NCBI GenBank assembly: GCA_002049455.2
Contig: KV918770.1
Coordinates: 1-64,000 of the forward strand
Direction of reading: 5' to 3'
Length of the DNA: 64,000 nt
Origin: Porphyra umbilicalis
Taxonomy: Eukaryota > Rhodophyta > Bangiophyceae > Bangiales > Bangiaceae
Positions within the stretch are counted from its first letter, which is position 1, and each line of letters starts with the position of its first letter. Both the position numbers and the translations under genes were made by a program. The notes beneath the pieces are model-generated. The model was not told the origin of the DNA. It searched no databases and saw only the letters and a program-made list of their open reading frames with translations. This document shows positions 32,239-63,300 of this stretch, piece by piece.

Positions 32239-32817
32239 TCATTGATGCACCTCGCCGGCGGCCGACGGCACCGCGTCGTGTAGGTCCCTGAGAAGCAGCA
32301 CACGTACACTTTCCTCAACCCACCCTGGCACTTCGTATCCATCATCAAACAACGACTCCTCTCCGGCGCACAGCGGCACCTTTGCAAACAGCCTGACTCT
32401 AACCTCGCCACACACGCTCAACAGCTTCGAATCGACGTTGGCATGCTCCGTCGTGCGGAGGTTCATGAATTTCATCCGGTTGCCCACCCGTGTAGCGTCT
32501 ATGTTCACCGTCTTAATGATGAAGTACAGGATGCTCACCCCCTTGGCGTCGTACACGCGCCTACGCGAGGCCGCCTCCACATATGAGATGAGGTTACCGA
32601 CGTACCCACCAACAAGGTCCCCTTCCGCCGCACCTTCAGCAGCGAGGAGACCGAATCCGTGAGCGTCCGAGCGACCGAGCACGCAACGAATGCGGGCATC
32701 GACTTGAAGTTGGACGTTAAGACAGCAACGGCGGCCTACAACGCCTCCGGCAGCGACACCCCCGCTCTGAACGTCAGCCGCAATCAGCAACCTCGCAACT
32801 CGTAGTACCTGCCCACC
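32239..32817 (-). pseudogene. E(z)-like histone methyltransferase, SET domain fragment
   Basis: The translation reads as an Enhancer-of-zeste SET domain: CCLNVQLQ..., VLGRSDAHGFGLLA, VGGYVGNLISYVEAASRR, VYDAKGVSILYF, IDATRVGNRMKFMNLR, then VCGEVRVRLFAK and GEESLFDDGYE. E(z) SET domains transfer methyl groups from SAM to H3K27. Here the NHS motif of the SAM/active-site pocket is NLR, and the terminal Tyr-containing motif is altered, so activity is doubtful. The frame stays open from the end of the domain to the gypsy junction at 32818. It continues without a break on the far side of the element at 50414, where the E(z) CXC region is found. The gypsy therefore landed between CXC and SET. Confidence 0.8.
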
Positions 32818-32822
32818 GGCAC

Positions 32823-33469
32823 AGTAGTACTACCGGGCCCCCTAGGCGCCAGGGGGCCGCCGCGGGGACGTCGGCGGCGCCGGCGGACGCGGCACCCGAC
32901 AGGGGGTGGCGACGCCAGCGGCGGTGGTGGCCGACGGGACGGCGAGGCGGGGGCCGGGACGATGCGGCCGCCCCGCTGCCCGGCTCGGGCCACCGGAGGA
33001 GCGTACGCGACCCGCCTCACCCGGCACGCGGGCCCCGCGGGAGGCCGGGTTGGCGCGCCCGAGAGGGCGCTGGCGCGCCTGAGAGGGCGCGGCAGGCGAC
33101 GGCCGACAGGGCGCCACGCGGCGGGTGCAGCGCGTTGCGCGTGGGACGGTTACTCCCCCTTGTCTGTAATGATCGCCTCGGGGGACTTGAGATGCACGGA
33201 GGGAATTATCTGCATTGGTTGGTGACGGCCCGGGTCAATTCCCATTTGGGGGAATTGGGCCCGGGCGACGGCTTCCGCCCTTTTAGGACGAAGGGCGACG
33301 ACGGTGGGAGGCACCGTCGTCGCCGGCTGGTACACCGTGTCTTCATGTCTTGGCGTTTCGATCGGCCTGAATTCCCGGACCTCGAGACCCATAGCGGGTG
33401 TCGCGCGAGCGGCCGAGACGGCTGTTACTTCGCTCCCCCGGAGGTCACTCCCCTGATTGTGGTACTACA
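32823..33469 (+). repeat. Gypsy 5' LTR
   Basis: Ends GTGGTACTACA. The start is mutated (expected TGTAGTAC, found AGTAGTAC), as judged from the 3' copy. It is directly followed by the primer-binding site. Confidence 0.88.
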
Positions 33470-33471
33470 TT

Positions 33472-33490
33472 TGGCGCTCCGGGTGAGACC
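33472..33490 (+). promoter_or_regulatory. Gypsy primer-binding site
   Basis: TGGCGCTCCGGGTGAG starts two bases after the LTR. The leading TGG is the complement of a tRNA CCA end, the usual gypsy arrangement. The particular tRNA is not identified. Confidence 0.6.
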
Positions 33491-33617
33491 CGCTGCACGC
33501 ACGCGGTGCGTATCGCGGATCGACACTTTTTTCGGTACCAAGAGTCGGGGGACCTTCGGGGGTTGTATTGCGGTGCGGTGACGGAGGACATCCGATCGAT
33601 ACGCGGGCCCCGCTTCC

Positions 33618-36100
33618 ATGGCCCGCGGATCTTTCTCATCTTCCCCGCTCGACGAGGGCGCTCTTCCGTTTAGGATGCCCGGCACTAGCCAGGTGACGGA
33701 CGCGCCACCGGCGGGAGACCTCGAGGCAACGCCGGCGTTGGGCGCCGTGGCCCCCGTTGGGGGTGGACGGGCGGTCCCGGGTGGCGGCGGCGGTACGGTG
33801 GCAGGTGAGTCGAACTCCCTGCCGAAGAACCCCGGCCACACGCCGACCACCAAGGCTCGCCCTCCTCCCGGCGCGGGACGGACGTCTACGCTGGCAGAGT
33901 CCCAGCGTGGGGGCGTGGGGGTGCATCCCTCGGCCCTGGATGGGCAGGGCAGTGCCCGGTCGGGGCGCCGCCCTTCGGCCCACCTCGCGTGGAGGCGGTT
34001 GGAAGCTCATCGGGTACCCGGACTGGTGGGCAGCCCGCCAGCCTGGGACCGATCCGAGCAGCGGACGCGCTGTCGCCGGAGGAAGAGGAGCGACAGCGTC
34101 AGGAGCTACAGACAGTTTTCGGGGTCACCCCGGAAGACGTGGCCCGGGCACAGTGGAAGCGTACCACCCGGGACCACTGGTCACTCGACGCACTGTCGAA
34201 GGTGGGTGGGACAGGGCCCAGCCTACATGGGATCGTCGGCGCAGCAGCCCAAGGGGTGTCGTGGCCGGCGACCGACACGGGACACCTGCGCCACCTACGC
34301 CAGGTATTCCGAGACGCAGCGGAGGAGACGTCTACCGCGGCATCGGACGGGACCCCGGTCCAGGCGCGTAGCGCGGCCGTCGCCATGCCTCTCGCCGCGG
34401 CCCAGGGGCCGTCCCCCGCGTCCGCGAGCGCGAGCGCGCCGGCACAACCGGGACCCGGACCGGGCGCCCCCGGGGGGCGTCCGGCCGTTGGGGGCCTCGG
34501 CATAGCGGGGTCCACCCTCACAATGAAGGCCGCGCTGACCGCCCGACGCGGTCGCAGTCGCAGCGGGCCGCCAAGCGTTGGCGCCCCAAAGAGGTTTCGA
34601 CGCGGGGAAGCCGCCGGCGGCGGCACTTACGACGCGACGCGTCGCCCCAGTCCTCGGGGCCCCCCTCCTCGACCGCGAGCGAGCCCAGTCCGTCGGACTC
34701 GTCCTCCGACTCGAGCGGGGCTGACTCGACGGGTAGCAGCAGCGGCGTGACATCCGCCTCTGCCGCCGGCAGCAATCCTGGAGCAACCCGCCGCCGACAA
34801 CAGGCACGTGCGGCCGACAAACGCTCGGAGCGTGCCATGGTGCAAAAGGCACTGCGCGCCTTCCGGCGGGAGCAGCGGAAGGACACCGTAGTCGACCCCC
34901 GCTTCAAGGTACTACTGTCGGCAGAGCGGTACCGGATCGCGCAGCGAGGAGGCCGCCTGCACTTCCCGCGAGGCAACTCCATCCGCGTCATCCGCGCGGA
35001 CATCAAGGCATTGATGCGCACCTCGCCGCAGTTCGCGGGTGACACCCCGCTGGGGTTGGTGGCGTTCCTCGGGAACATCCAGACGGCGTGCGACGGGCGC
35101 GGCCTGAATTAGGGGACAACAGTGACACTACTGCAGGACGTCGTCACGAGCGAGGTGCTCGTGGTGCTTCAGCGAGCCAAGGATGAGCATGCCTCGCGGC
35201 AGCTCACGTTCAAGCGCGCGGTCCGTGCGCTGCTCAATGAGTACCTCGACGGGGACGACCTGGTGGACCACCTTCAGTCGCTCATGCAAGCGTCCCTGAA
35301 GAAGTGGGAGGACGAGCACGAGTTTGCGAACCGCATCCTCGATGCCAACCGCGCCTTGGGCTCGGTCCTGCAAGAGTCCGAGCTGAAGAGTATCCTACTC
35401 AACGGCGTCGGACGGGAAGACCGGGCCCTTGGGCGGAACTTCAACTTCAAGGGCCGGAACTTCCCCAAGCTACGCAAGTTCCTCGCCAAGACCGGAGCAG
35501 CCACCCTTAAGGCGCGGGGGTTCAAGCTCCAAGCCAAGCCCAAGGGGAGCACCCCCCGGTCGGCCGGTGGCGAAGAACGGGAGGCCCGTCGGGCCCGGCC
35601 GGCGGCGTCCGTCGCCCTCCCGGTGGGAGCCGCCTCGGTCGCGGCGGCCCGCGCCGTCACGGATTACGGGACCGGGGCAGAACGGGCCGTGTGGGCCGCG
35701 GTACTGGCCGCATCGGCGACGCCCGTCGAGTACGGCCCTCCGGACGACGTCCCGGTACTACCGGTGGATAGCCTCCTGCACGCGTCGGGCTGGCAACAAC
35801 AGCCCGCGTGGGGCGGGCGCCCGGAGCTGTGCCCCGTTCGTACGGGGGCGGGGCGCGGGCGCGGCACCCTGGCGCCGGGCACCCCCGCGTCCCCGCGGAC
35901 GGGTACCATTTTGTCGCACTCTGACCTCCCCCCGAGGTTCCCTTGTGGCTGGGCCCCTCCACCGCGCGGTGGCGCATGGGGTGGCGCGCCTGAGACGGGG
36001 GCCCCGCGCCGGCGGCGGGGGGCCTGCTCGTTCTGTGGCCACGTGGGACACTGGGTGTGAAAATGCTCCGCCCAGTTCCCCATAGTGCGGGCCCACGGAC
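33618..36100 (+). pseudogene. Gypsy gag, frameshifted
   Basis: Gag is spread over three frames. The N-terminal Pro/Gly part (33618 to about 33990) continues in the frame of 33989-34640 with ELQTVFGVTPEDVARAQWKR. A Ser/Asp-rich linker then leads into the 34747-36060 frame with the structural part (RFKVLLSAERYRIAQRGG, LRKFLAKTGAATLKARGF). That frame has a TAG at 35110-35112 between GLN and GTTVTLL, where Trp is likely. It ends in a zinc knuckle, CSFCGHVGHWV-stop-KC, where a TGA at 36058-36060 replaces one residue of C-x2-C-x4-H-x4-C. Assembly of capsid is the family function. Confidence 0.75.
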
Positions 36101-36859
36101 GCGCGCTGCGCGGGGCCGTCGCGGCACACCGGAACGGATAGGGACCCGCACCGCCGGCGCCCCGGCCTCTGGGCGCGGGACCGCCTTTCGCGCCCCTGCC
36201 GCCGGCCGTACCCGGCAATGCGTCCGGCCCGCAGGGCACGGCCGCGTTCGTCCACGCCGTGAAAACGGATTATCGGGCGAACCCGGACGCTTCGGGCAAC
36301 GAGGGGGAGAGCTTCTCCGAGGAGTGGGCCGCGGGCGCCGACGACGCGGGACACGGGGACGGCCGCACCTGCCACGCTCAGGGAAACGCGTAAGGGGCAG
36401 CCCCATGAGTGGGCTGCCCGCGGACGGCGTCCGTCTCCAGGCACACCGGCACTGTTACATCACGGCGACCCGCCTGCGCCAGGTCCGGAAGCGGCGGGCA
36501 GCAGTGGGAATACCGCCAGCGCCCGCCTTCTGCCCCCGCATCCTAGCGCTGCCTGGCAAGGGCAGCAGTGCCGCGGCGGAAGTACCTGACCATTCCGCCG
36601 TCCCAGCGGCGCCGGAGGCCACCGAGACTGTCCCTCCGTCTCCGCAGGTTGCCGCATCGGTACTGGCCCTTGGCCACTCCGACCCCCGACCGTGGGGCCG
36701 TGGGGATGGCATTCCTGCGGACACACCCGCCAATGAGGCAAGCAGCGGGGGCGGGCTCCGACGGCGCCTCGGTGGTCGTGCCCGGCGCGAGCGTACCCGC
36801 TTCCGCCACGACGCCGCCGCCGTCGCGTACCCCGCGGAAGCGCCGGACACCCCGTCCGG

Positions 36860-37700
36860 GGGCGGGGAAGAGCTCCTTTCTCATCCTCCACAACTACCGC
36901 ATCGTGGCCTCTCTGGGCCTGGATAAGCTGTCCCTCGTCGCGCTCGGCGTCGTCCTGAACACGGGGGTGGACCCCAACCTGGTCCGCCGGAACGCCCTCG
37001 CCCCTGACTGGTTCCGCCAGGTGGTTCCTCCAAGGAGGAATAGCCGGTACGCCTCTAGGACGCCAACAACGCGCGGTTGCGCACTAGCGGTACCGTCACG
37101 CTGTGGCTTCAGATGAGCGGCCGGATCGTCCCTGTACCCTTCCTCGTCGTCGAAGTCCTGTCGGTCCCAGTTACCCTGGGCTTTAAGTTCACCGAAGACC
37201 ACGCCCACGCCATCCTGCCTCAGGACCGATCCATCTGTTGGACGGACAAGTCCGTCACGGCGATCCTGCGGGGGCCATTGGACGATGGCGACCGCTCGAT
37301 GGGCGTCTCCTGCGTTCTCCGCTCGACGCACAGGACGCAGCTCCCGCCGTCGGCGGCCACGGTCTTCTGGGTGCGAACCATGTGGGGAGGCCTGGGCCAG
37401 GTGTTCGGCGACTCGCGCCTGTTCACAACAGATTCTGTCACCATTGCCAACGGCGTGCACGACATCGTGCCGGGGCCATCCTTCCCGGTCATCGTGTCCA
37501 ATTTCGGCGCGCGTGAGGTCATCCTCCGGCAGAGGGCCAAGGTCGGCTACGTCGAGCTGCTCACTACGGGCGTCGTGCAGGTGCCCCACGGGGCAGCCCA
37601 TGAGACGCTGCCCGCCCCGGCTTTCACGACGGCAACGGCCGCCGAGGGCGTGGTGGAAGCGGTGTCGGGCACCCGGTGCGACCCTACACCGAGGCGGGGC
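36860..37700 (+). pseudogene. Gypsy aspartic protease, catalytic Asp lost
   Basis: KLSLVALGVVLNTGVDPNLV matches the retropepsin active site, but the invariant Asp of D-T-G is Asn (AAC at 36958-36960, a GAC to AAC change). The remaining fold continues after a frameshift near 37060: TVTLWLQMSGRIVPVPFLVV, then a Pro/Gly linker. The protease would cleave the Gag-Pol polyprotein, but this copy cannot. Confidence 0.7.
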
Positions 37701-39030
37701 CCAGACACGGCGGCGCCAACGGACGGGGGCCCGCGGCGCCAGAGCGACCCCGGGATCCTGGCAAAGGGGACGCCTTGCCTGTCGCAGGGCAACGCGGACC
37801 CCCATCCCAAGTGGAGGATGTGGAACTACCGGATGCCGATAAGGCGCTGCAAGCCCGGATCCGCCGCATGCTGGACCAGCACAAGGCAATGGGGACGGGC
37901 CAGGCGCTAGGCGTCATCAAGGCCACTCAACACCGCATCGACCTGAACGCCGGCGCCAGGCCCGTCCGCTTTGCGCCGCGTCGCGCGGGCCACACGGCAC
38001 GGGAAGCCGAAACGGCCGAGATCAAGCGGCAGCTGGAGGCGGATTTTATCGAACCGACGTCGTCGGAATGGGGCTTTCCGGTCGTGCTCGTCCCTAAGAA
38101 GGATGGCACCCTCCGCTTCCGCGTCGTTTATCGACTGCTGAACTTCGTGACTAAGAAGAACTCATACCCACTGCCCCGAATGGAAGAGTGCATCGACAGC
38201 CTCGGCGTGGCGACCATCTTCTCGACGCTGGATTGCAATGCCGGCTACTGGCAGGTTGCCATCGCACCCGAAGACATTAAAAAGAAGGCTTTCGTGTGCC
38301 ACGAGGGCGCCTACCAGTATAGAAGGATGCCGATCGGCTTGACGGACGCGCCCGCGACGTTCCAGCAGGCGCTGGACATCATCCTCTCCGGGGTGAAGTG
38401 GCAAAGATGCCTCATCTACCTCGACGATGTCATAGTGAATTCCAAGACGGAGGAGGAGCATGTCGGCCATGTCGATCGCGTCTTACGCCTGCTGCGAGAC
38501 GCGGGAGTGACACTCCGGCTGCCTAAATGCCGGTTCTTTCGTAGGACCTTGGAGTACCTCGGGCACGAGATCAAGCCGGGCCGGCTTGGCGTGATGGACG
38601 CGCACACGCGTGTACTGCGCGTGGCGCACTTCCCCACGACCCGCACGCAAGTCCGGAGCTTCGTGGGGATGCGCAACGGCTCTCGCCGGTTCGTGCCGAT
38701 CTTCGCCCGGATAGCGGCGCCATTGAAGGACCTTATGGGGTCCACTGCCCCTATCCTAGTACCACCCGCCACGCCATTGCAGCAGCAGGCGTTCGACCGG
38801 CTCAAGGAGGCGCCCACGACCCCACCGATCCTCGCACTCTCGCGGCGCGGGCAGAAGTACGTCCTCTACGTTGATGCCTGCGGGATGCAAGTAGGCGCCG
38901 CCCTGCTCCAGGAGCAAGACGACCGAAAGCTCCAGCCGGTCGCGTATTTCAGCCAGCGGCTGGCGAAAAAACGAACTCCCCTACTGGGCCACGGAAAAAG
39001 AGTGCCTGGCGGTCGTCTGGGCGTCGCTCA
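37676..39030 (+). pseudogene. Gypsy reverse transcriptase and first half of RNase H
   Basis: The RT core is well kept: EADFIEPTSSEWGFPVVLV, LPRMEECIDSLGVATIFSTL, QYRRMPIGLTDAPATFQQAL, and catalytic YLDD at 38417-38428. RNase H begins YVDACGMQVGAALLQE. An A6 run at 38966-38971 has one A too many and shifts the frame. In the other frame ATEKECLAVVWASL follows directly, up to the copia insertion at 39030. The rest of RNase H lies at 44885-45011 beyond the nested element. Confidence 0.88.
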
Positions 39031-39429
39031 TGTGAAGTGAGCGGTAGTTGGGTGGATGCGTTGCTTTACTCGAGAGCGGTCTGAGGCGCGAGGCCAGCAG
39101 GCTCTTAACCCCTCCGTGTGCCTCTCTCGCCACGTCCTGCCGGGGCACCCCCCGCCAGCGCAGTGCTCCCTCCCTTAGAGGGTACATGCTCTCACCACCC
39201 CACAAATCGCGACGCCCCTCGAGGAGCCCACGAGAATCCCCCCGAGCTCAGCTCCAAAGTGAGCTGCCCGCGAGATACAAGTACAAGTAATTACATCACA
39301 CACATATAGCAATGCATGTCAATGGCACAGCCAAACAAGCCGATGACCGCATAAGTAACTCCTGGAATTAGCCAGGCAGTCCGCCGTAACTCCGACTTAC
39401 CTGCGCGGGCTTGGGAGGCTGCCTCAACA
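39031..39429 (-). repeat. Nested copia 3' LTR, 399 bp
   Basis: In element orientation it starts TGTTGAGGCAGCC and ends CTTCACA. It contains a 65-bp segment (about 39044-39108) missing from the other LTR and present in the solo LTR at 27850, so the full form is ancestral. Confidence 0.9.
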
Positions 39430-39440
39430 CTCCCCCCAGC
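39430..39440 (-). promoter_or_regulatory. Polypurine tract of the nested copia
   Basis: In element orientation GCTGGGGGGAG abuts the 3' LTR, the expected plus-strand primer. Confidence 0.75.
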
Positions 39441-39699
39441 ACCCCACATTCCGCGCCATCGACGCCTCAGCGCGGTCACAACCCGGCCCGACCACTGCGA
39501 CATCTCCCGCCATCATCCGCAGTCGAGAAAATGCCCAAGTCGATCCCCAGGTTCCAGGTGTTGCACCTGCAAAATCGACCTTCGCCAAAATCACCAAAAT
39601 CACGATCGATGTGAAGCAGACGTCGAGGTGAGTGCAACGCACTAAGGCGCGTCTCGAACTGAGACGATCCGGCGCATCGGCGGCCCGTCAAAGTGCGGG

Positions 39700-40209
39700 C
39701 GTAAACGCAGGTCATCGACTTTGCCGAAAATCGGCTCGACCCGTCGGAGCTGTAGGCCTACAGCTCCCTTAGCCAAAATCGGCCAAAATCGACTTGCACC
39801 AAATCGATTCGGGCCCGACCGGCCGACTTGGCCCGAAGCTAGAGACTTCCAGATTCGGGCCCAAGACCACAAAGAAATCGACTTCACCAAAATCGACTCG
39901 ACCCGTCGGAGCTGTAGGCCTACAGCTCCCGGCCGAAATCGCCCAAAATCGACTTAGGCCAAATCGAGTCGGGCGATCGCCGCGAACCCGCGGCTGCGCC
40001 ACTGGTCGGCCCCAGTGGCGCCACAGCGCCCCAGGACGGTCCCAACCGGCCGTCCCCCCCAAGGCAACAGCGCCCCATTGCCGGCCCCGAGCAAGTGGAT
40101 AGTTGCGCAACTGTCCACGGCCGGCACCGGCCCGCAGCAAGGTCGACGGAGGTCGCTGCCGCGAATCCGGGGCTGCGCCACTGGACGCCTCCAGTGGCGC
40201 CATGGCGCC
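39700..40209 (-). repeat. Palindrome-rich 3' region of the nested copia
   Basis: A perfect 22-bp palindrome centred on TGTAGGCCTACA lies at 39746-39767 and again at 39908-39929, inside a longer direct repeat. Inverted repeats GGCGCCACTGG / CCAGTGGCGCC occur at about 39992-40022 and 40173-40205. A near-palindrome around AGTTGCGCAACT lies at 40098-40117. The word CCAAAATCGACT recurs several times. No protein is encoded. Confidence 0.85.
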
Positions 40210-43200
40210 TCAGCACTCCCCCAACAAGGGGTCGCCAAGCCCGGCGCCCCGCGCAGCCGCGCCCAGGTCTTCACCAACCCCGACGGCAGCCCGGAAAGCC
40301 GTGAACGCCGGCGACGGCAGCGGCTTGGTGAGCCCATCCGCTGGCATGTCGGCGCTTGGGAGGAAGTAGAAGGCCACATCCCCGCGCGCCTGGTAGTCGC
40401 GAACCATGTGGTAGGCGACGTCGACATGCTTGGTCCGCCCCGTCGCCTCGGGGTTGTTGACCAGCGCCAGGCAGGACTGGTTGTCCTCCCCCATCGGCAC
40501 GGCTCCGCCGTCGACGCCCAGAGCCGACAGCAGCTTGCGTAGCCACAGCGCCTCCTTGGTCGACATCGCGGCGGCCACGTACTCGGCCTCGGCCGTCGAG
40601 GTGGCAACGGTCGACTGGCGCTTGCTCGCCCACGCAATCGGCCCGCCATTGCAGGTGAAGAAGAAGCCGGTTGTCGACCGACGACCGCCGATGTCGCCGG
40701 CCCAGTCGGCGTCAACAAACCCTTGCAGCGGCTCGCTGCCGCCGTAGATCACCCCCAGGCGAGTCGTCCCGCGCAGGTAGCGCAAAACCCCCTTGGCGGC
40801 GCGCATGTGGTCCTCCTCAGGGCAGGACATGAAGCGCGACAGCACCCCCACGGCAAAGGCAATGTCTGGCCTCGTCGTGGTAGACAGGCAGAGGAGGGAG
40901 CCAACCAACTCGGCGTAACGGTTGCCTTCCGGCAGCAGGCCCTCCCCTGTCTTGGTCAGCTTGATCCCCGACGCCATCGGTGTCTTGTTTGGCGTCGCCT
41001 TGTCCATCCCGAACGCCTCCAGCAGCGTCGCGGTGTGCCCCGGGTTGCTCAACGTCAGAGTCTTGGCCGCCTGGTTGCGCATGACCTTCATGCCGATAAA
41101 GTCCTTGACCTCCCCCATGTCGCGCACCTCAAACTTGGCAGACACGAAGCGCTTGACGGCCTCGACCCCAGCCAGCTTCTCACCCGCCACGATAAGGTCG
41201 TCGACGTACACGAGGATAAAGATGCACCCGTGCACTGGGTGGTGCCACTCATAGAGGCACGGGTCCACCTTGGAGCGGACCGCCCCCATCTCCTTGAGCT
41301 CTTTGTCGAGCTTGATGCCCCACAGCCGCCCCGCCTGCTTTGTCCCGTAGAGCGCCACGTTAAGCCGACACATCTCCTCCAGCCCCTCCGGTTCGACACC
41401 GTCGGGGAGTTTGATGTACATCTCCTTGTCCATCTTGGCGTTGAGGAAGGCTGTCTTGACGTCGACATGGTGAATCTCCCAGCCCATGGCTGCCGCCACA
41501 GCAAAGAGAGCACGTGTCGTGGCCGCGTTGGGTACCGGAGCCCACGTCTCGTCAAAGTCTCGTCCGGGCACCTGGTTAAACCCTTGGGCCACGAGTCGAG
41601 CCTTGTAGCGCGTCAGCTTGCCCTCCGCGTCGTGCTTGATGTCGAACACGAATCGCGTCTTGATGGCCTTGTGATTCTTGTTGTTCCCCTTGGTCTTGGA
41701 CCAGGTGCCAAGGTGCTTGTGTGCCGCCACCTCCTCCTTAATGGCCTGCTTCCACAGCGGCCAGTCAGGACGAGCGCGCGCCTCCTTCTCGTCTGCAGGC
41801 GGCTTGTGCAAGTCCCAGCCCGCCTCAGCCGCGGAAGCGTTACCGCTTGCCAAGTACGCCTTGGGTTCCTTCTCCCACCATGTTACCTTGGGAGCTGGCT
41901 TGCGCTTCGAGCGACGAGGCCCCGGTGTGACGCTGTCACTGGCCGCAGGTGCTTGAGCAGCTGCGGGTGTCGAGCCACCGACGCCGTCCTCGTCCTCCTC
42001 CTGGCTATTGCCGGCAAAGGAAGGAGGACCGACTTCGTTGTCTTTGTCAGAGGTGTCGTCGGGGGAGTACTCGTCCACTCGCCCGCCTTCTGCGTCGAGC
42101 ATGTCCATTGCCCCTTCCGTGGCGCCGTCCTTGGTGCCGTCATATTCCGCAGTCAGCCGGGGACCAGCGCTTGACCCGACTGCTGACATCTCGACCTTCG
42201 CCGGGTTCTCCTCCATCAGCACGTCCCGATGCTCGAAGACTTGGTTTGTCTGGTCCTCGAGGATGCGGTAGGCCTTGCCACCGACAGTGTCGCCGACAAA
42301 ACGGCCGACGTCGGTCCTCGGCTCCAGCTTGCGCTGCTGCTTCTTCGGCTTGAGCGCCCACGCCCGACTCCCCCAAACGCGGAATCCCGCGACGTTGGGG
42401 CGTCGACCCGTCAGCGCCTCGAGCGGCGTCACATCGAGCCCCGCCTTGGGAGATCGGTTGAGCACATGGTCGACGAAGGCCAACGCCTCGGCCCACAGCT
42501 CTTCGTCCGCACCGGCGTCAAGCAGGGCAGCACGCACGCGCTCCATCAGCGTGCGGTTTACCCGCTCCGCCTTGCCGTTCTGCTGCGACTTGTACGGCGC
42601 CGTCATCCCAGACATGATGCCCTTATCCTCGTACCACGCCTTACGATCGTTCGTGACGTACTCCTTTGCACCGTCGTGACGGACACGCTTCACTTTCACG
42701 CCCGTCAGCGTCTCAAGCTGCTTGATGCGCGTCTTGAGCACCTCCGGCGCCATCCCCTTTGTCTTGATAGGCGTAGCCGTGATGAACCCCGTTGAGTCCT
42801 CCAGCGCCGTCATAAAGTAGAGGGAGCCACCCAGCGACTCAGTGAGTGGGCCACCAATGTCGGTGTGCACCAGTTCGCACTTGGTTGTCGCTGTCGACGA
42901 GCGGGGGCTGGGCGACTGAACCATCTTGCCGTCGACACACGGCACACACACCGTGTCAATGACGCGCTTGGCATCTGCCACTGACGACGGCATGCCGTCG
43001 ACCATTGTGGCCGCCCGCTTGAGGTTCTCCAACCTCAAGTGGTTGAACCGACGATGCCACAGCTCCGCCTCCCCAGCTATGCGCGTCGATGCCGCGCACG
43101 CCGACGCCCTGACCGGCGTGACCTTGAGCACGTACTGCTCCAGGTCGTTGACTTTGCCGACAACGGACGCCTTGTCGAGCACTCCGCTCGAATAGACAGC

Positions 43201-44879: not shown

Positions 44880-44884
44880 GCTCA

Positions 44885-46786: not shown

Positions 46787-49745
46787 CTTTTTGGGTCGGC
46801 ACAGCGGCTGGGCGCGGCAGGGGGGGGGGTTGTGGTTTCTCGGGGTTTGCTGGGGTCTATGGGTCTGTAGAGACGTGCGGGGCGGCAGACGGGGAGCGGA
46901 CGCACCACGCGGGAATCCACTGCTGGTCGCATAGGCGAAAGGAAGCACAAGGCGACAGTCGCGACTTTATGACGCGGTGGACGACTGCTTAACGCCGTCG
47001 AAGCAAGAACGGCGCTGAAGGGGCAAGGGCGACGCCCCCAGTCGTGGCTGCGATACTCCCACACGTGGACGGGGCGGCCCGCCTGTCGCAGGACGCGCCG
47101 CAGAGCGGCGTGAAACTGCTTCGCCCGCGTACGCGGGGACTCCAGGCAGGGAGGGACGACGCCGGCGAGCATGATGCGGGGGTACTCGACTATGGCAGCG
47201 GTGCCCTCGCGGGGCCCCACTGCGGCCCAGTTGACGGACGGGTCGTACCCGAACAAGGCGACAACCTGTCCGGACGTCAGCGAGTCCCGCCACTCCGTGG
47301 CCATCACCGGGATAGGGGGCGTCCATAACGCGGATAACCACCAATCGTGGGCGATGTCCGGCTGCCCCTGGATGGGGGTCGCGACGGGACCCGTGACGCC
47401 CAGCTCAAGCGGCGCCGGCGCGGGACCGTCGTTGTTGTACCCCTCATCCCAACACGCGGAGCGCGGACCGGCGGCCGAACTGATACCGGCGGTCGGGTAG
47501 CACCCGCCGCCACGGCGGTGCGCAGGGCCCCAACAGCGGTTCCCGCCGGCGTCGTCCCCGTGGCCGCGACCGCCGTCAGCGGGCCACGCGGGCCCGTCGC
47601 GGCCGGTGGCCGCATGGCCGCGACCATTACCCGACGCGGGCGCCCAGCCGCCACCACGGTCGTGCCTTACATCGGTGTGGCGGCCATGCCCGCCCTCCCA
47701 GCGATCCTTGCGGTCGCGACGGGGGGCAGCGGCACCGCCGCCCGACTCGGGCGCCCACCCGCCGACAGGGCTGTAGTCGGCTGCGCCGGAGTGGTCGTCA
47801 CGCCCCTAAGCGTCCCAGCGACCGTCACGCGCCGCGCCGGCGCCACCTCCCGGGCCTCCGCACGTGAGCCCCAATCGGCTCCACCCGCAAGGGTCAACGC
47901 GGCCAAGCGGCGGGGGCCGGCGGCAGACCCGTCGAGACCCCTGGCATTTTCCTCCCACTCGTCCTCCTCAAGGTCCCGAGGACCGTGCTCGCCCCCGAAG
48001 GGCCCCCACGCGGGGAGGGCGGCTGGCCCCGCGGCCGCACCCGGAGATGCGACGGCCTGGGACCCGGAGGCCAGGAACCCCGACTGGGCCGGGCCGCCAC
48101 GCGCCATGTCGGCGTGACGCCGCTTCCGCTCGCGGTAAGCAGCCGACGCGGCCGCCTCCCCCGCAGATGGCGGAACGGTATCCAGGTCGGTCGAGGGAAA
48201 GCCGGCCGGCACCGTCCAGGACCCCACCGTCACGGGCAGCGCCGGCGGCGTGACGTCCGCGAGCCGGGGCTCCACCAGCATGACCCCCAACGGGGCTTGC
48301 GGCGACCGCGGGACGCTCACGACGCGAACGTAGTTGCATCGCCGATCACCAACGTTTTCCACTTGGTGGGGCAGCAGTGTGCTGGGCGCATGCCGGCTTT
48401 GGTCTTGATGGTACGGTAACCGGTCTTGGACCGCCTGCCAGGGCACCGCCCTCATGATGGCGTCGTACTCCGCCAAAGCGTCGGCGACGGAGCCGTCACC
48501 CGGCGCTAGGTCACCGACCGAGAACTTCTCCGTCAAGGCGTAGTAGCACGGCGACGACCGGAAGACGCGGTGCGTCTCGCGGTCCGCCCATAGCAGCCCC
48601 GACACGATGGCGGCCGTCATCATGACGTAGGCGTAACCCTGGGTAGGGTGACACGGTGACGCCTGCAGCAGCGATTGCTGCTGATGTAAGACGGGCGGAT
48701 ACTCGTGCGTCAGCAAACGCGGCGTCGCGTACCGCCCGGCCATCGCAGGCGACAAGGGCGCCCGCGCCGGCGCCAAGCAGATTCCGGAGCGCATAGGGAG
48801 GAAGAAAGCCCCATGCACCGCCCGTCGGGCGGTCACGAGCTCACCGCGGGAGCGGCGCGCGGCCTCCAACGCCAAATCGGCCGGGGCGGTCGCCGCGACC
48901 ACCGGGGCCAGGGAGAGTAGGGGCCCTACGCCCCAGAAGTTGACAGGCGCCAAGGAATTGCCAACTGGAACCGCGGGGCAATGGCGTAGGCGGGTGTGCC
49001 AGTCGTCGAGGTAGGCGTCCTCCTCGTCGCCGGCGACCAACCGTTGATCGGCCACGGGGTGCGGAACCAAGAGCCCCCGACCCACATTGCACCTAAACAT
49101 GCAGCGCAGCCATCCCGCGCTGCCGCCGACGGAACGGACGAAGGAAGCGAAGTCGCGGTCGGCCGCCGGCCGGTCGTCGTACCCCGCCGTCTTGGCAAAC
49201 TCCTGAAAGGACCGCCACACGGCGTGCGACCCACCCGTGTCTCTAGGATGGGCGGGCTGGAAGACGTCACTGACGAGCTGCCAGTCGGCCGAGGCGACTG
49301 GCGGCCCCAACGGAGCGAGCCACGCCCGGACGGCGGGTGGCGCCGGCCGTTGCGGGATCGCGGGGGCAGCCTGCCCCAGAAGCAGCGGACGCTGCTCCGG
49401 CACGCTCGCGGATCCCCTGCGAGGGCCAGGGACAGGGCCCGCCGCTATCACAGGCGTCGGCGACGTCGCTGACTCGGCCCCGGTGCCGGCCACCGCAACG
49501 GCGCCCGCCGGGCGGGGCGGCTTTCGCCACTCCCGGCCGTTCGGGTCGTACGGGAGCCACATGCCCGGCGGCACCGACGAACAAACGGCGACGGTTGAAC
49601 AACGCCCGGGCGGTCCCGGCGTGGTCGGCGCGGCGGACGTCGACGCCGGTCCCGAAGCGGCGGCCGCCCTGGACGGGCACGACGCGGGCGCGTGGGACGG
49701 ATCCCCGACGGGGCCGGCGGAAGGCGTCGCCCGGGACGGCTCCAT
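46783..49745 (-). CDS. Antisense accessory ORF of the gypsy element, unknown function
   Basis: On the strand opposite pol, a frame runs from an ATG at 49743-49745, just inside the 3' LTR, to a TAA at 47667-47669 (about 692 codons). After a break it resumes in another frame from about 47490 to a stop at 46783 that overlaps the pol stop codon. The N-terminal 150 residues are Pro/Ala-rich. The middle reads like a folded protein: DWQLVSDVFQPAH, FQEFAKTAGYDD, FASFVRSVGGSAGWLRCMF, VNFWGVGPLLSLAPVV, RVFRSSPCYYALTEKFSVG. The last part reads DIAHDWWLSALWTPPIPV and VVALFGYDPSVNWAAVG. Antisense ORFs at this place are known in some plant gypsy elements. I do not recognise this one. Confidence 0.6.
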
Positions 49746-49760
49746 CTCAGCCGATGAGGA

Positions 49761-50408
49761 TGTAGTACTATGAGGCCCCCTATGCGCCAGGGGGCCGCCG
49801 CGGGGACGTCGGCGGCGCCTGGGGACGCGGCACCCGAAACGGGGTGGCGACGCCAGCGGCGGTGGTGGCCGACGGAACGGCGACGAAGGGGGCCGGGACG
49901 ATGCGGCCGCCCCGCTGCCCAGCTCGAGCCACCGGAGGAGCGTACCCGACATGCCGCACCCGGCACGCGGGCCTCGCTGGGGGCCGTGTTGGCGCGCCGG
50001 AGAGGGCGCTGGCGCGCCTGAGAGGGCGCGGCAGGCGACGGCCGACCGGGCGCCACGTGGCGGGTGCAGCGCGTTGCGCGTGGGACGGTTACTCCCCCTC
50101 GTCTGGAATGATCGCCTCGGGGGACTTGCGATGCACGGAGGGAATTATCTGCATTGGTTGGTGACGGCCCGGGTCAATTCCCATTTGGGGAAATTGGGCC
50201 CGGGCGACGGTTTCCGCCCATTTAGGACGAAGGGCGACAACGGTGGGAGGCACAGTCGTCGCCGACTGGTACACCGTGTCTTCATGTCTTGGCGTTTCGA
50301 TTGGCCTGACTTCCCGGTGCTCGAGCCCCATAGCGGGTGTCGCGGGAGCGGCCGAGACGGCTGTTACTTCGCTCCTCCGGAGGTGACCCCCCTTATTGTG
50401 GTATCACA
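49761..50408 (+). repeat. Gypsy 3' LTR
   Basis: Starts TGTAGTACTATGAGG and ends GTGGTATCACA, followed by the GGCAC target duplication. It aligns over its whole length to 32823-33469 with many substitutions and small indels. Confidence 0.9.
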
Positions 50409-50413
50409 GGCAC

Positions 50414-51394: not shown

Positions 51395-51812
51395 TGTTGG
51401 ACTGTGATGCTCGTCGCCGACTCCACTGGCGGTTCGCGGTTGGACGATGGTCGGTGACCCTTATGGTACCCCACATGGTACATTTGCGAGACGTGGTCAA
51501 GTTGCACACATTTGTGTTGGGTCATCTTGGGGCGTTACTTTTGGCATGTTTTGGATTTGATCTTCGCTTTGCTCTAGTGGCTTTTGATTTGGTGAGTGAT
51601 TCGATTTGGTGCGAGGGCGTGGGCGTCGGTGTGGGCGCGAGAGGGGGGAGCACTTGGGCCGGTGGGGACTATTTTAGAGGTGCTCTCGGTTGGGAGAGGC
51701 GGGCGAACCTGAGGACAACGAACAAAGCATGTTCGCACACACACACACAAGCTCAAGCCACTCAACCACTTCACCGTGGTCCCCCAACCCCTATCCCCAC
51801 TGCGATTCAACA
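51395..51812 (+). repeat. Young copia 5' LTR
   Basis: Starts TGTTGGACTGTGATG and ends GATTCAACA. A short CA microsatellite lies near its 3' end at about 51736. Confidence 0.95.
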
Positions 51813-51826
51813 GGTTATGGGCCCAG
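51813..51826 (+). promoter_or_regulatory. Primer-binding site, initiator tRNA-Met anticodon arm
   Basis: GGTTATGGGCCCAG directly follows the 5' LTR and is complementary to the CTGGGCCCATAACC stretch of initiator tRNA-Met, as in the other two copia-type elements here. Confidence 0.85.
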
Positions 51827-51973
51827 AGCCGGGGCTGTGACAAGAGCAACGTGTGCCAGCTGGTGTCGCGGCGGTCGCGGCAAGTGCGAAGAAGACGAGG
51901 TCAAGGTGGTTCAAGGACGTGACGGTCAAGGCGAACGGCTCGGCAAGGTCGGGCGCTACGACAAGACGACATC

Positions 51974-54900
51974 ATGGACGGAGGCGCTGCCGGCATGGGC
52001 GGCATCAAGATCGACAAGTTGACGGAGACGAACTTCCACGAATGGCGTCAGCGCATTAAGATGGTCCTCGCGCTGCGCGACCTGGACGATATGCTTGACG
52101 AAGACGGCAAGCCGACGGACGCGGATGCCCGCGAGTTGGCGGTGTGGAAGCGTCGAGACACGAAGGCGAGCGCCATCATTGGGCTCACCCTTGGATCTGA
52201 GCAGCTCGAGCACGTGTCGGGCTGCAAGACGACGGCAGAAATGTGGTCGACGCTGCAAGGTGTCTTCTAGCGCAAGAGTTTGATGAACAAGATGAAGGCG
52301 CGACGCGAGTTCTATACCGTCGAAATGACCGTCGGTGAGGGCATGCTGGGCTACATCAACCGCGTGCGCAACCTCGGCGAGAACCTCAAGGCCATGGGCG
52401 GCGAGGTGACGGAGATGGACGTTGCTATGAGTGTCCTCAACGGGCTGACGTCCAAGTACGAGAACCTGCTGGTGGCTCTCGACGCCAAGGGCGAGGACGA
52501 GCTGAGCCTCGACTTTGTCAAGAGCCGCTTGCTTCAGGAGGAGCGGCGGCAGGCGGACAAGTCACCGTCGACCAAGCGCATTGGCGACATGGCACTCGTC
52601 GGCGCCAACTATCGAGGTCAAGGCCGCCGTGGTGACCTCTCCAAGATCGAGTGTTACTACTGCCATAAGTTTGGGCATATCTCTCACGATTGCCCAGAGC
52701 TCAAGGCCAAGAAGCAGAGACAGGACAAGGTGGCCGCGATTGCGGCTGACGATGGTAGCGACAGCGACGACGCTATCTGTTTGGTGGGCAATGCGGCTGA
52801 CACCGATGACATCTCCAAGTCGTGGCTTGTCGATTCTGCGGCGTCTGCACACATGTGCTGGATGCGCGGGTGCTTCGACGAGTACCAGACGACTACGGGA
52901 CGCAGCGTCACCATGGGTGACAAGGGGTCCGTAGCCACGGCGGGCGTCGGAACCGTCGTGCTCAATGTCATCGTTCACGGCAAGACGCGCAAGATCAAGT
53001 TGGAGAAGGTGCTCCATGCTCCTACCATGGGCTTCAACCTCATGTCGGTCGGCATGATGGAGGAGCGTGGTGCGGAAGTGTCATTCAAGGGCGGTAAGAC
53101 GATCATCAAGATTAGCGACAAGGTCGCTGCGTGCGGCACGCGGAAGAGTGGGCTCTACCACCTGGACATGGCCCCACTGTCGGATATTGCTGCGGTGGCC
53201 TCTCTTCAGCTCTGGCATGAGCGCCTTGGGCACGTCAACGTGGCTGGCGTTAAGCGGATGATAAAGAACAAGGACATCGATGGACTCAAGTGCTCTTCCA
53301 TGGCGGTCAAGGACGTCTGCGAGCCGTGCGTGTATGGGAAGGCGGCTATGACGCCTATGCCTAGTGCAGGAGGAGGTCGAGTGACCAAGCGCCTGCAGCT
53401 CGTGCACTCGGACCTGGGCGGGCCAATGTCGGAGCCGTCGCGTGGCGGTGCGCTCTACTTTGGCACCTTCACTGACGACTTCTCCCGCTGGACAGACGTG
53501 GTCCTCCTGCAGAAGAAGAGCGATCTGCTCTCTGAGTACAAGAAGTGGCTGACGAAGGTTCAGCTGCACACGGGAACCAAGATCAAGATCCTACGCTCCG
53601 ACAATGGCGGCGAGTATGTGTCGAACGCATTCAAGGCTCTTCACGATGGGAACGGTACGACGCACCAGACCACGGTGCCCGACACGCCGCAGCAGAACGG
53701 GGTTGCTGAGCGGCTTAACCGAGTTCTCGTGGAGATGGCTCGCACCATGATGCGACACAAGGACGTCGATCGGGATCTTTGGGCGGATGCCATCAAGACG
53801 GCGGTGTACATCAAGAATCGCGTCACCAGCCGGGCGCTTCCCGTCGGCAAGACGCCTTTTGAGCTGTGGACCGGGAAGAAGCCCGACGTAAGCCACATGC
53901 GGGTGTTTGGGTCGACATGCTGGGTGGTGCTGCACAAGAGTCACATCGACGGCAAGTTTGGCGACAAGGCGGCGAAGGGCGTCTTCTTAGGCTATCCTGA
54001 CGGCAGCAAGGCGTACAAGGTCATCCTCGACGACGGCAAGGTCGTCAAGGCACGAAGTGTCGTGTTCGCCGAGACGAACGTAAGCGAGGTGGCAGAAGTT
54101 GCAGAGGAGCTCCCCGGAGACGAAAACGTCGAAGTCGAGACGGGCTTGCGTTCTACAAGCGACGGCGAAGACGCAGATGCTGACAATGACGACAAGGATG
54201 ACAAGCAAGACGATGGATCTGACAAGTCCGCGGACGACAATCAAGGTTGTGGCGGCTCTCAAGACACTCTGCGTCGGAGCGGTAGAGCGCGGCGACCACC
54301 TGTCGAGTACTGGCGCCCGGTGAGCCTGGTTGCTCACGAGGCGCCCACGACGTTCGTTCAAGCCGTTCAAGGGCAGGAATCGGCTAAGTGGCAGATTGCC
54401 ATGGACGAGGAGATGGAGGCCATCCGCAAGAACAAGACTTGGCGCTTGACGGATCGCCCGGCCAGTCGACGCGTGCTGAAGGGCAAGTGGGTGTACAAGG
54501 TCAAGAACGAGGTTGACAAGAACGGGAACAACAAGACGCGGCACAAGGCGCGCCTGTGCTTCATGGGGAACCGGCAGATCAAGGGGCTCGACTTCAACGA
54601 GACGTTCGCGCCAGTGGCCAAGTTCACTACCATCCGATGCATCCTGGCGATGACGGCGGCGAACGGGTGGGAGCTACATCAGATGGACGTCAAGACGGCA
54701 TTCCTCAACGGCGACCTTGACAAGGAGGTCTCCATGGAGCAGCCAGACGGCTATGTCGATCCGACGTATCCTGACAAGGTGTGTCGTCTCCTCCAAGCGC
54801 TGTATGGGCTGAAGCAAGCTCCCAAGATGTGGTACGCCAAGCTCGACGACTTCCTCAAGTCACAAGGGTTCAATAACATTGACCCGGATGCATGCCTCTA

Positions 54901-55900
54901 CCTCCTTATGGATGACGGCGAAATCATCATCGTCCTGGTGTACGTCGACGATCTACTGTTGGTGGCATCAAGCCTGGCGGCGATCTACAAGATTAAGGAC
55001 GCTCTGCACAAGCGTTTTGAGATGAAGGACCTGGGTGAGGCGAAGGTCATCCTCGGGCTAGAGATTAAGCGTGACAAGGCGTTGGGCACCCTCAAGCTGT
55101 TGCAGGGCAAGTACGCGGCGCAAGTGCTGGAGAAGTTCGCGATGGCGGAGTGCAACCCGATCGGAACGCCGCTGGAGGTGGGCCTGCAGCTGGTCAAGGC
55201 CGACGAGAGCGACGACACGCTGCCCTACCGCAAAGCTGTCGGCAGTCTGATGTACCTGATGGTCGGGACACGTCCTGACCTCGCCTTCGCTATCGGGAAG
55301 CTGAGTCGGTTTGTTTCGTGCTACGGCAAGGAGCATTGGGCGGCGATCAAGCGCGTTCTACGGTACGTCAAGGGTTCGATGGACAAGGGGCTGGTCTTCG
55401 ACAAGAGCACTTCCTGTGTTCTACAGGGCTTTAGTGATGCCGACTGGGCGGGTGACCACGAGACGCGACGTTCGACGACGGGCTTCACCTTCATCTTTGG
55501 CGGAGCAGCCGTCAGCTGGGGTTCTAAGTTGCAGAAGACGGTGGCGCCGTCGACGATGGAAGCTGAGTACATGGCTCTATGTGAGGCCAGCAAGGAAGCT
55601 GTTTGGCTCAACAAGCTCGTGCAAAGCGTGGCAACTCAAGGGCTGCGGACAGCGATCTCGGGCGGGCCGATCAACATCAAGGTCGACAACAGCGGGTGCA
55701 TTGACTTCTCCAAGAACCCCGTCGAGCACAAGCGCACTAAGCACATCGACATTCGCTACCACTTTGTGCGCGAGGCCATCACGACGGACAAGGTGACATT
55801 GGAGCATTGTGCAACGGACGACATGGTGGCGGACCCGATGACGAAGGAGCTCGGCAAGACCAAGCACGACAAGCATGTCGAGGCCATGGGGCTTTGCTGA
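51974..55900 (+). pseudogene. Copia gag-pol polyprotein with a single TAG in gag
   Basis: About 1308 codons from ATG 51974 to TGA 55898-55900, with one interruption: TAG at 52268-52270 (MWSTLQGVF-stop-RKSLMNKM, most likely a former CAG or GAG). Domains: gag with KIDKLTETNFHEWRQRIK; zinc knuckle CYYCHKFGHISHDC; protease WLVDSAASAHM, where the usual DSG is DSA; integrase with LWHERLGHVN, CEPCVYGK, LVHSDLGGPM, LRSDNGGEYV and QQNGVAERLNRV; RT with MDVKTAFLNGDLDKEV and LVYVDDLLLV; RNase H with DADWAGDHETRRSTTGF and STMEAEYMALCEA. Only the stop separates this young copy from apparent integrity. Confidence 0.93.
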
Positions 55901-55935
55901 AAACAAGAACCGCCGCGGCAACAAGCAAGGAGGAG

Positions 55936-56353
55936 TGTTGGACTGTGATGCTCGTCGCCGACTCCACTGGCGGTTCGCGGTTGGACGATGGTCGGTGACC
56001 CTTATGGTACCCCACATGGTACATTTGCGAGACGTGGTCAAGTTGCACACATTTGTGTTGGGTCATCTTGGGGCGTTACTTTTGGCATGTTTTGGATTTG
56101 ATCTTCGCTTTGCTCTAGTGGCTTTTGATTTGGTGAGTGATTCGATTTGGTGCGAGGGCGTGGGCGTCGGTGTGGGCGCGAGAGGGGGGAGCACTTGGGC
56201 CGGTGGGGACTATTTTAGAGGTGCTCTCGGTTGGGAGAGGCGGGCGAACCTGAGGACAACGAACAAAGCACGTTCGCACACACACACACAAGCTCAAGCC
56301 ACTCAACCACTTCACCGTGGTCCCCCAACCCCTATCCCTACTGCGATTCAACA
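55936..56353 (+). repeat. Young copia 3' LTR
   Basis: Same length as the 5' copy, with two differences seen (CATG versus CACG near the CA repeat, and CCCCAC versus CCCTAC near the end). It is preceded by the purine tract AAGCAAGGAGGAG. Confidence 0.95.
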
Positions 56354-56807: not shown

Positions 56808-57029
56808 TTGTGTGTTGAGAGGTCAAAAACCAACTACGCCACATGACCGGTGTGACTGGCCTGGGGAGCTGAACATCACCAGTTCAACGCTCCCCCCAGC
56901 TCCTCAGGGCCAGGCTCGTCTGACCCACGACTCGGAATTGCCTCTCCTGCAAGTTCCTTCGTCCCCCTCCTGGGGCGCAGCCGTGGCGATTCTCGAACCC
57001 GCGACCTCTCAGAACTAAATCCAGCGCGA

Positions 57030-57044
57030 GCTGGGCCCATAACC
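57030..57044 (-). promoter_or_regulatory. Primer-binding site, initiator tRNA-Met anticodon arm
   Basis: GGTTATGGGCCCAGC in element orientation next to the LTR, identical to the site in the nested copia. Confidence 0.8.
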
Positions 57045-57427
57045 TGTTGAAACGCAGTGGGGATAGGGGATGGGGGACCACGGTGAAGTGGTTGAGTGGG
57101 TTGAACTTGTGTGTATGTGTGCGAACGTGCTTTGTTGGTTGTCTCTCCCAAGCGCCCCTCTTCCCATCAAGGGCACTCCTTAAGTAGTCCAAGTCGGAGC
57201 ACTCAAGCCCACCACGCAGCCCAAGCAGCTCGCCCGCGCACGCGCCCGCCCACACTCTCAATCAAAACGCTCACCAAATCAAAGCATCAGGGATCAAAGC
57301 AAAAGCCCACGCAAATCAAAGCATCAGAAGCGCAAGAACAAAAAATGTGAAATCGCAAAACTTTCACTCAAAATCGCACGGGTACAAATGTCGAATGCAC
57401 CAGCGGTCGCCAAACCGCAAGGAAGTC

Positions 57428-57522
57428 GCATGGGTAGCCTAGTGGGAAGTAGGCACCGACTCTCATTAGGCGTGACCTTCGGGTCGCGTCCGGGAGTCGG
57501 GGGTTCGAACCCTGTCAATACC
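57428..57522 (+). tRNA. tRNA-like sequence (pseudo-tRNA) inside an LTR
   Basis: A perfect D arm (GCCT/AGGC) begins a box-A-like TAGCCTAGTGGG at 57435, and a box-B-like GGTTCGAACCC starts at 57502. The acceptor pairs at five of seven positions. Between them CCGACTC and GAGTCGG could form an extended anticodon stem, and GTGACC-TTCG-GGTCGC forms a hairpin like a long variable arm or an intron. CTCAT in the loop recalls Met. Anticodon and T stems compete for the same bases, so a functional tRNA is unlikely. It lies antisense in the 546-bp LTR and may be a SINE-like insertion. Confidence 0.45.
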
Positions 57523-57595
57523 TGGTTTCTTGAATTTTTGCTTTTTACAGCAGGAGGGCTTACAGCGGCGTTGAGCATGACGCTCCAACATTGTG

Positions 57596-57884
57596 GGCCG
57601 CCGTCAAGTGCCCCGTGCAGCCGACAGGCATACCGCAAACAGACGAGGCACAAGAGAAAATCCAAATGTCGCCTTCCCGGCACGCGCACTTCGCCCGCCA
57701 GCGCTATAGCGGGTCCGGCAACACTTGCGCCTGTTGGCGCAGCGTGGCCTGCGCCGAGCAGAGTGCCGATAGAAGGCAGGTTCGTGGCAGCCTCAGCGCC
57801 GCCATGAGCTCGAACGACTGTGCGTAGCTTCCGAACGGCAGCAGCGTCGTTACGCATCGCGTCGCTCCCGTCTGCGACTTTCAA
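57596..57884 (-). pseudogene. E(z)-like gene, MCSS-like Cys/His fragment
   Basis: The frame ends FLLCLVCLRYACRLHG just before the small LTR element. This fits the conserved E(z) stretch with L/F-C-x-x-C-x-x-Y/F-D/A-C-x-L-H-G that precedes the second SANT domain. Upstream is an Ala-rich linker. The frame is in register with 56807 once the small element and one TTGTG are removed. The frame change to the upstream ORF at 57881 implies an intron or an indel. Confidence 0.6.
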
Positions 57885-58447
57885 AATAGCTCGGCTTGCC
57901 GCAGAGCCCGCACACGACTCAAAGAGGGGGGGCGAGCGGCTGCGATGTCGGCCGCTGACGCCGCAGCCGCAGACGTGGAGGCCCCAAAAACTACCGATGC
58001 GCCTTGCACTCGGGCCTCGGGAGGGCCACTCTCGCAGCTTGCAAAGGCAGAACCAGCCACACGGCCGCCCTGATCCCGTACAGCGCCGTTAGCGAGCACT
58101 ACTTGGAGGCTGGCGCCACCCGTCAGCTGCTCCAGAGCGGCTTGGCGGGTGGCCTGCGCCTCGCGCTCTGACGCGGCTCGGCGGTGGTGATCCCCCCTCC
58201 GCTGGACGAGCTCAACCACGTGAACCATGGGAGGCAGCGTCTCGCTCAGCACCTCGCTCAAGGTGTGCACCACTGCCGGTGAGTCACCAAGCGCTTGAGC
58301 GACTGCGTATACGCCAGCGCGCTGGGCCATCTGGAACGTCCGCTCTTCAAGCAAATGGTATCGATTGCCGAGGTCGGTAGGCTCATCGTCTGACGCGTCA
58401 CTGCCGTCACTGTTGCAGTCGGACGCCGTCCACCCGTTTTTACGCAT
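57881..58447 (-). CDS. Possible N-terminal part of the E(z)-like gene
   Basis: 188 codons: an acidic Ser/Asp start (SDGSDASDDEPTD), then helical GNRYHLLEERTFQMAQRAG and HTLSEVLSETLPPMVHVV, then Ala-rich. Acidic-then-helical composition fits the EZD region of plant and protist E(z) proteins only loosely. Position and strand directly upstream of the MCSS-like fragment are the main argument. It could instead be an unrelated gene. Confidence 0.35.
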   Translation of the reverse strand: MRKNGWTASDCNSDGSDASDDEPTDLGNRYHLLEERTFQMAQRAGVYAVAQALGDSPAVVHTLSEVLSETLPPMVHVVELVQRRGDHHRRAASEREAQATRQAALEQLTGGASLQVVLANGAVRDQGGRVAGSAFASCESGPPEARVQGASVVFGASTSAAAASAADIAAARPPSLSRVRALRQAELF

Positions 58448-63297: not shown

Positions 63298-63300
63298 CTA

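Follow-up and report, generated by a model that had tools for sequence, protein, structure and literature searches.

The window analysed here is the first 64,000 nucleotides of contig KV918770.1 of the red alga Porphyra umbilicalis (assembly GCA_002049455.2). It contains a broken gene of the Enhancer of zeste (E(z)) type, which was very probably carried as cargo by a giant Tc1/mariner-type transposon, now decayed, that has dozens of relatives in the genome. Copies of this transposon family encode a DDE transposase, a cysteine-rich companion protein and an E(z)-type protein. In the window, the E(z) gene was later split by a Ty3/gypsy element (with a copia element nested in it), a Ty1/copia element and a 0.78-kb piece resembling a long terminal repeat (LTR) element. 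Other copies in the genome are denoted by C numbers and database proteins by P numbers; feature coordinates are collected in Table 1.

The remnant in the window exceeds E(z) alone, with a companion at 62 kb, a transposase at 30 kb and a two-finger C2H2 protein at 24 kb. The transposase has lost two of its three catalytic residues (first D to A, E to K), and the companion remnant gave no Pfam match in the domain scan. When two SUZ12 proteins were searched by tblastn against the window and 10 kb beyond it, the one match (E 0.37) lay in the flank. The SET fragment is 75-81% identical to 12 copies (C313, C5, C482, C187, C113, C59, C286, C92, C25, C2, C177 and C131), and a thirteenth relative, C155, which is absent from the CXC list, is 79% identical over a shorter part; genome-wide the SET piece returned 95 rows, some of which are pieces of one gene. 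In 10 relatives (C131, C5, C113, C177, C313, C482, C187, C2, C92 and C25) the order E(z), transposase, C2H2 was found on the same strand, the transposase lying 2.0-4.8 kb and the C2H2 gene 7.9-11.1 kb downstream of E(z) (hit start to hit start). Without the gypsy insert, the window spacings are about 3 kb and about 9 kb, which fits these relatives; C59 keeps the order at 19 and 25 kb. The idea of an inversion inside the window copy, suggested by C261 and C192 alone, was dropped given the same order in the 10 relatives.

The earlier note on this DNA took the gene for a silencing gene and suggested that it could be either a paralogue decaying by chance or a target preferred by retroelements. It is indeed a dead gene of the E(z) type with three insertions. 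However, the 13 close SET relatives, 10 of them with transposase and C2H2 genes in the order of the window, contradict a host gene. Moreover, a separate likely host E(z), grouping with Pyropia, is found on C76, and in the sister copy C317 a copia element sits inside the companion gene. Both forms of the host explanation are therefore very improbable.

Relatives are plentiful elsewhere in the assembly. In the 83.8-Mb genome, the CXC domain of E(z) (PF18264) passes the Pfam cut-off in 76 matches, the one on C76 included, with open frames of up to 1420 amino acids (aa). A red algal genome is also indicated by a 185-kb contig that carries 10 of the 11 phycobilisome-family matches, one of which proved on checking to be close to R-phycoerythrin beta chains, and by the resemblance of C76 to Pyropia. 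Neighbours were counted within 30 kb against expectations that assume uniform placement, and separate matches are in some cases parts of a single gene; the transposase list (104 scored of 377 candidates) and the companion list (150 of 200) are both partial. A transposase was found near 62 of the 76 E(z) matches (at most 5.7 expected) and a companion near 61 (8.2 expected). Conversely, E(z) was found near 23 of the 26 VEFS boxes of SUZ12 in the genome (1.4 expected) and near 51 of 72 C2H2 matches (3.9 expected). At least one of transposase, C2H2 and SUZ12 accompanied 72/76 E(z) matches, in recurrent order and spacing, leaving C76, C278, C286 and C412 without any such partner; SUZ12 or C2H2 accompanied 66/76. 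Both together were seen with 3/76, and in C113 the C2H2 gene is 21.6 kb off, beside another E(z). Among E(z) copies SUZ12 and the two-finger C2H2 protein are nearly mutually exclusive, as if substituting for each other.

Some copies have defined ends. The copy C261:53519-77227 (23.7 kb) is bounded by terminal inverted repeats (TIRs) with TA and contains genes for a DDE transposase, the companion, E(z), SUZ12 (VEFS) and a C2H2 protein, as well as a small open reading frame (ORF). A second TIR pair bounds a copy of 21.8 kb in C228 (100421-122253), and the left border is common to three copies with unrelated flanks. The end pattern was located at 19 places, several of them paired, versus 0 for the reversed-pattern control; 17 of the 19 start with TA, which was part of the search pattern. 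DDE_3 was over the cut-off in both transposases scanned (6.7e-11 and 4.2e-10), and the C261 transposase is of the same family as proteins with this domain. A size of about 20-30 kb would also suit an endogenous virus, but TIRs with TA and a DDE_3 transposase argue against one, and the scanned non-retroelement ORFs matched no viral family. In the one scan of viral contigs no relative was confirmed, and a viral origin is the least probable of the explanations weighed here, to the point of being negligible.

Several results weigh against assigning the window gene to such a transposon, or the family to a PRC2-bearing one (PRC2, Polycomb repressive complex 2). TIRs of the window copy were not found: the end-pattern search gave 8 matches where 8.2 were expected, and an uncontrolled search of the window for inverted pairs returned chiefly pairs that are rich in G+C and do not resemble the family ends. 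For C286, which is closely related to the window copy, no partner gene is listed. Within 30 kb, 14/76 E(z) matches have no transposase (some lie at contig ends) and only 23/76 have SUZ12. From the other side, 60/104 transposase matches have a CXC match within 30 kb and 44/104 do not, the window being one of the 44 as its own CXC is too decayed; 94/150 companion matches lie near E(z) or a transposase and 56/150 near neither. At the domain level, the helix-turn-helix match was under the Pfam cut-off, as was Ezh2_MCSS (0.012, in one of four E(z) proteins), and the SUZ12 zinc domain (Zn_SUZ12) reached 21.4 bits against a cut-off of 28. No EED-like gene stood out among the ORFs conserved between lineages, although no EED-directed search was made.

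The earlier note had also described the window gene as E(z)-type, dead and split by three insertions, a description upheld by the tblastn segments, the target duplications and a translation of the rejoined gene. tblastn of relatives matched five segments on the minus strand in gene order, of which the N-terminal one is a piece beyond those previously described; the CXC segment scored under the threshold in the genome-wide CXC profile search. For three segments the best match is shorter than the full extent given in Table 1: 58555-58070 for the N-terminal one, 51277-51023 for SANT and 50765-50445 for CXC. The 5-bp duplications are exact at all three sites. Each gap had been said to be exactly one LTR element, which is right as to three inserts, but the gypsy gap also contains the nested copia. 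Likewise, the flanking frames are in register across the TTGTG and GGCAC sites, as had been claimed, but differ on either side of GAGGT. In the gene rejoined in silico, homology runs through frames 1, 3, 2 and 1, with stops and no single open frame; of its three frame changes, one spans the GAGGT site and the other two are found where there is no insertion. The two stops reported in CXC are present in this translation. As for the damaged NHS motif, H-to-L is specific to the window, whereas S-to-R is common to C187, which reads NHR. The frame changes and stops thus point to decay by small insertions, deletions and stops as well.

That the fragments were once contiguous is borne out by C187, which is unbroken at all three insertion sites and keeps a 737-aa open frame over the part that was fetched. 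Because C187 is contiguous there, the insertions into the window gene were precise. Two of the aligned segments differ in length between the window and C187 (462 vs 466 and 990 vs 991 bases), and these differences of 4 bases and 1 base fit small insertions or deletions.

Table 1. Features of the decayed element in the window, its insertions, and the four aligned segments that show relative C187 uninterrupted at the three sites (w, window).
Feature	Position	Strand	Evidence or remark
Companion remnant, Cys-rich	61504..61923	minus	open frame 61141-62055; 43% to C192 companion, E 1.5e-33
E(z) N-terminal segment	58070..58567	minus	tblastn with transposon E(z) proteins, best E 3e-12
E(z) MCSS-like segment (CLVCLRYACRLHG)	57612..57860	minus	tblastn E 5e-8; DNA 86% to C187
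Target duplication TTGTG of 778-bp insert	56808-56812 and 57591-57595		
LTR-like insert, 778 bp	56813..57590	unassigned	TG..CA ends
Target duplication GAGGT of copia	51390-51394 and 56354-56358		
Ty1/copia element	51395..56353	plus	terminal repeats 99.1% alike; RVT_2
E(z) SANT-like segment	50975..51277	minus	tblastn E 1.6e-8 and 1.1e-7
E(z) CXC segment	50388..50765	minus	tblastn E 5e-19; two stops
Target duplication GGCAC of gypsy	32818-32822 and 50409-50413		
Ty3/gypsy element	32823..50408	plus	terminal repeats 93% alike; RVT_1, RNase H, Integrase_H2C2
Copia nested inside gypsy element	39109..44874	minus	terminal repeats 99.4% alike; RVT_2 1.2e-57
E(z) SET segment	32320..32730	minus	tblastn best E 4e-34; 81% to C313, C5, C482, C187; SET-motif NH to NL
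149-bp tandem repeat between E(z) and transposase	31044..31318		many copies in C187
Tc1/mariner-type transposase remnant	29916..30941	minus	E 6.8e-139; 5 stops
Small conserved ORF of element	28423..28848	minus	36% identity; 126-aa homologue in C192
115-bp tandem-repeat blocks	22992-23740 and 26431-27673		
Two-finger C2H2 (zf-met type) remnant	23901..24824	minus	E 1.0e-34; zf-met 2.5e-6; 2 stops
Uninterrupted site, C187	w57595-57859 = C187 76265-76001		86.0% identity
Uninterrupted site, C187	w56354-56815 = C187 76727-76262		86.7% identity
Uninterrupted site, C187	w50405-51394 = C187 77713-76723		90.5% identity
Uninterrupted site, C187	w31417-32825 = C187 79112-77702		90.3% identity

Other features were seen in the same stretch. 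A small mariner-type element resembling a miniature inverted-repeat transposable element occupies window positions 63299-63925, with ends TATGGTGCGTGTCC.. and ..GGACACGCATCATA, and nested copies of it lie beside the C192 element (C192:43166-44998). Adjoining the companion remnant on the plus strand (62780-63100) is a piece like a RecQ-type helicase, either a host gene piece or extra cargo, with IGRAGRDG, which we take to be a RecQ motif. A 748-aa frame with a tyrosinase domain (8.5e-26) was found on the minus strand at 17927-20173.

The proteins of the family resemble the PRC2 core of E(z)/EZH2 and SUZ12 in having SET, CXC and a VEFS box, and perhaps in a SANT-like segment. SET and CXC were over the Pfam cut-off in all four transposon E(z) proteins scanned. 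The database protein P0001, 99% like the C117 copy, has EZH2 and EZH1 as its best solved relatives (EZH2, E 1e-31), and, as regards the SANT2 and MCSS segments, the EZH2 alignment over residues 733-859 scored 12.8 bits. Counted by regular expressions on proteins picked for length, the SET motif NH was found in 17/18 transposon E(z) proteins, the GEYxGE type in 16/18 and the FxYGY type in 15/18. SUZ12 was recognized from its VEFS box in a 688-aa frame of C184 (1.2e-11; 45.0 bits vs a cut-off of 23). The transposon-borne E(z) proteins differ from the known core in being multi-copy and in their long N-terminal part, which has no Pfam match. Two VEFS-box genes, C6:429693-430049 and C154:158788-159168, have no E(z) CXC match within 30 kb; E(z) SET pieces lie about 2 kb from the latter, while the former, whose letters resemble the transposon form, may represent a domesticated or solitary copy.

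In a CXC-SET tree of 30 proteins, all 18 transposon E(z) (6 from the genome and 12 from the protein database) fell in one clade with support 100/99. The remaining E(z) comprised five fungal proteins, five proteins labelled 'lgn', and the pair of C76 and a Pyropia vietnamensis protein; the 'lgn' group and this pair join weakly (81/59). Rooting was at the midpoint, and the tree program issued warnings about long branches and about uneven composition. Based on its grouping with Pyropia and the lack of a transposase within 30 kb, C76 is likely the host E(z). The likely host SUZ12 is that of C478, which shares 27% identity with the C184 form across about 131 residues. More transposon-type E(z) were found in the protein database under ena/jgi sources (P0001-P0006 and P0008-P0017), possibly originating in the same species or a close one; no Pyropia vietnamensis protein was among the transposon-type matches listed by word-limited searches, one of which scored 8000 candidates. 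Five long 'lgn' E(z) (P0018-P0022), 40-87% alike in local alignments, could be host genes or cargo.

The history of the cargo was approached through distant transposases. Twelve matches at 41-45% to the C228 transposase have a companion nearby in 11/12 cases and E(z) in 0/12, so that E(z) was probably added to an older element that already had transposase and companion. These distant matches also outline a broader group of elements that carry transposase and companion but lack E(z). A single acquisition of E(z), on a branch of this older family and followed by some constraint, is supported, not proven. dN/dS was computed from the better-aligned codons only, which lowers dN. Among diverged E(z) pairs only C192 and C20, whose proteins are 66% identical, gave an unsaturated comparison, in which dN/dS was 0.37 at dS 0.50; for SUZ12 of C184 and C233 it was 0.45 at dS 0.22, and for the transposases of C192 and C228 it was 0.06 at dS 1.66. 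Against constraint, the near-identical E(z) of C261 and C71 gave 1.55 on 21 changes (0.92 on 7 changes for their SUZ12), and dS in most other pairs was high or saturated; the case for constraint therefore rests on few comparisons.

These values bear on whether E(z) is an inert passenger, that is, a host gene caught by accident in Pack-type fashion and copied without benefit to the element. Many copies are broken and the C261/C71 pair shows no constraint, as would be expected of a passenger. However, the ratio between C192 and C20, the 29 of 75 CXC matches that lie in frames of at least 900 aa (C76 left out), and the association with SUZ12 in several arrangements all speak for something retained, and a passenger is accordingly improbable.

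As to function, E(z) is described as stimulated by SUZ12 and ESC, and the activity of the four-subunit complex as exceeding that of E(z) on its own by far (PMC8788455). PRC2 is thought to have had an old role in transposon silencing (PMC8788455; PMC11160669), and animal mariners are reported to be able to co-opt host PRC2 for silencing (PMC4777549). In the case of the present family, it is conceivable, at somewhat under even chances, that the element-borne E(z), together with element or host SUZ12 and the remaining host PRC2 subunits (EED/p55), places H3K27 methylation on the chromatin of the element, to which the C2H2, companion or SUZ12 proteins would guide it. The outcome could be that the element limits its own transcription and the damage to its host, or that it claims chromatin from competitors. 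More tentatively still, the family may constitute a mobile Polycomb system, in which E(z) was captured once, SUZ12 became associated in several arrangements, and a transposon-encoded PRC2 core would write H3K27 methylation separately from the host E(z) and SUZ12.

The chief rival to such self-marking is an anti-silencing decoy, whereby the element's E(z) and SUZ12 would sequester host EED/p55 or act as competitors of host PRC2, and silencing would be escaped. In the red alga C. merolae, E(z) knock-out is reported to have led to expression of transposable elements (PMC13353863), and no PRC2 subunit other than E(z) and SUZ12 was seen here, which implies a need for host subunits; both points suit a decoy. 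A pure decoy, however, needs neither SET motifs, which are retained in 15 to 17 of the 18 sampled proteins, nor the constraint suggested by dN/dS below 1 in diverged pairs. It is thus rather unlikely, and self-marking is preferred.

The family shares with Tc1/mariner (ITm) transposons a DDE_3 transposase, TIRs and TA at the ends; it differs in the size of the C261 and C228 copies and in their three to five extra genes, PRC2 subunits included. Known mobile or transposon-derived carriers of chromatin- or DNA-modifying enzymes include KDZ elements with TET/JBP cargo, retrotransposons with DNA methyltransferases, and SETMAR. Giant algal DNA transposons with accessory genes are also known, for example Sola1-1_Ec32 of Ectocarpus, whose ParB plus DNA-methyltransferase protein is suggested to modify the element's own sequence (PMC12477816). 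Both are giant DNA transposons with an accessory protein that may act on the element itself, but in the present family the cargo encodes a histone methyltransferase, in many copies accompanied by SUZ12, and the transposase belongs to the Tc1/mariner type. The PRC2-recruiting mariners likewise combine a mariner with PRC2 silencing; there DNA sites (a silencer) co-opt host PRC2 (PMC4777549), whereas here the element encodes subunits. No description of an E(z)- or PRC2-bearing transposon was recognised in the literature searched, judged mostly by title and abstract opening. A transposon family carrying a Polycomb methyltransferase is unusual, and undescribed in that literature.

A transposon with PRC2 subunits reverses the relation in which PRC2 silences transposons, and offers a natural test of self-silencing versus counter-silencing. 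The setting is the red algae, in one species of which loss of the host E(z) is reported to have released transposons (PMC13353863). Where E(z) and SUZ12 genes are counted in red algae, what is counted may be transposons and, if a mobile Polycomb system is indeed what these elements carry, the silencing machine itself would be under transposon control.

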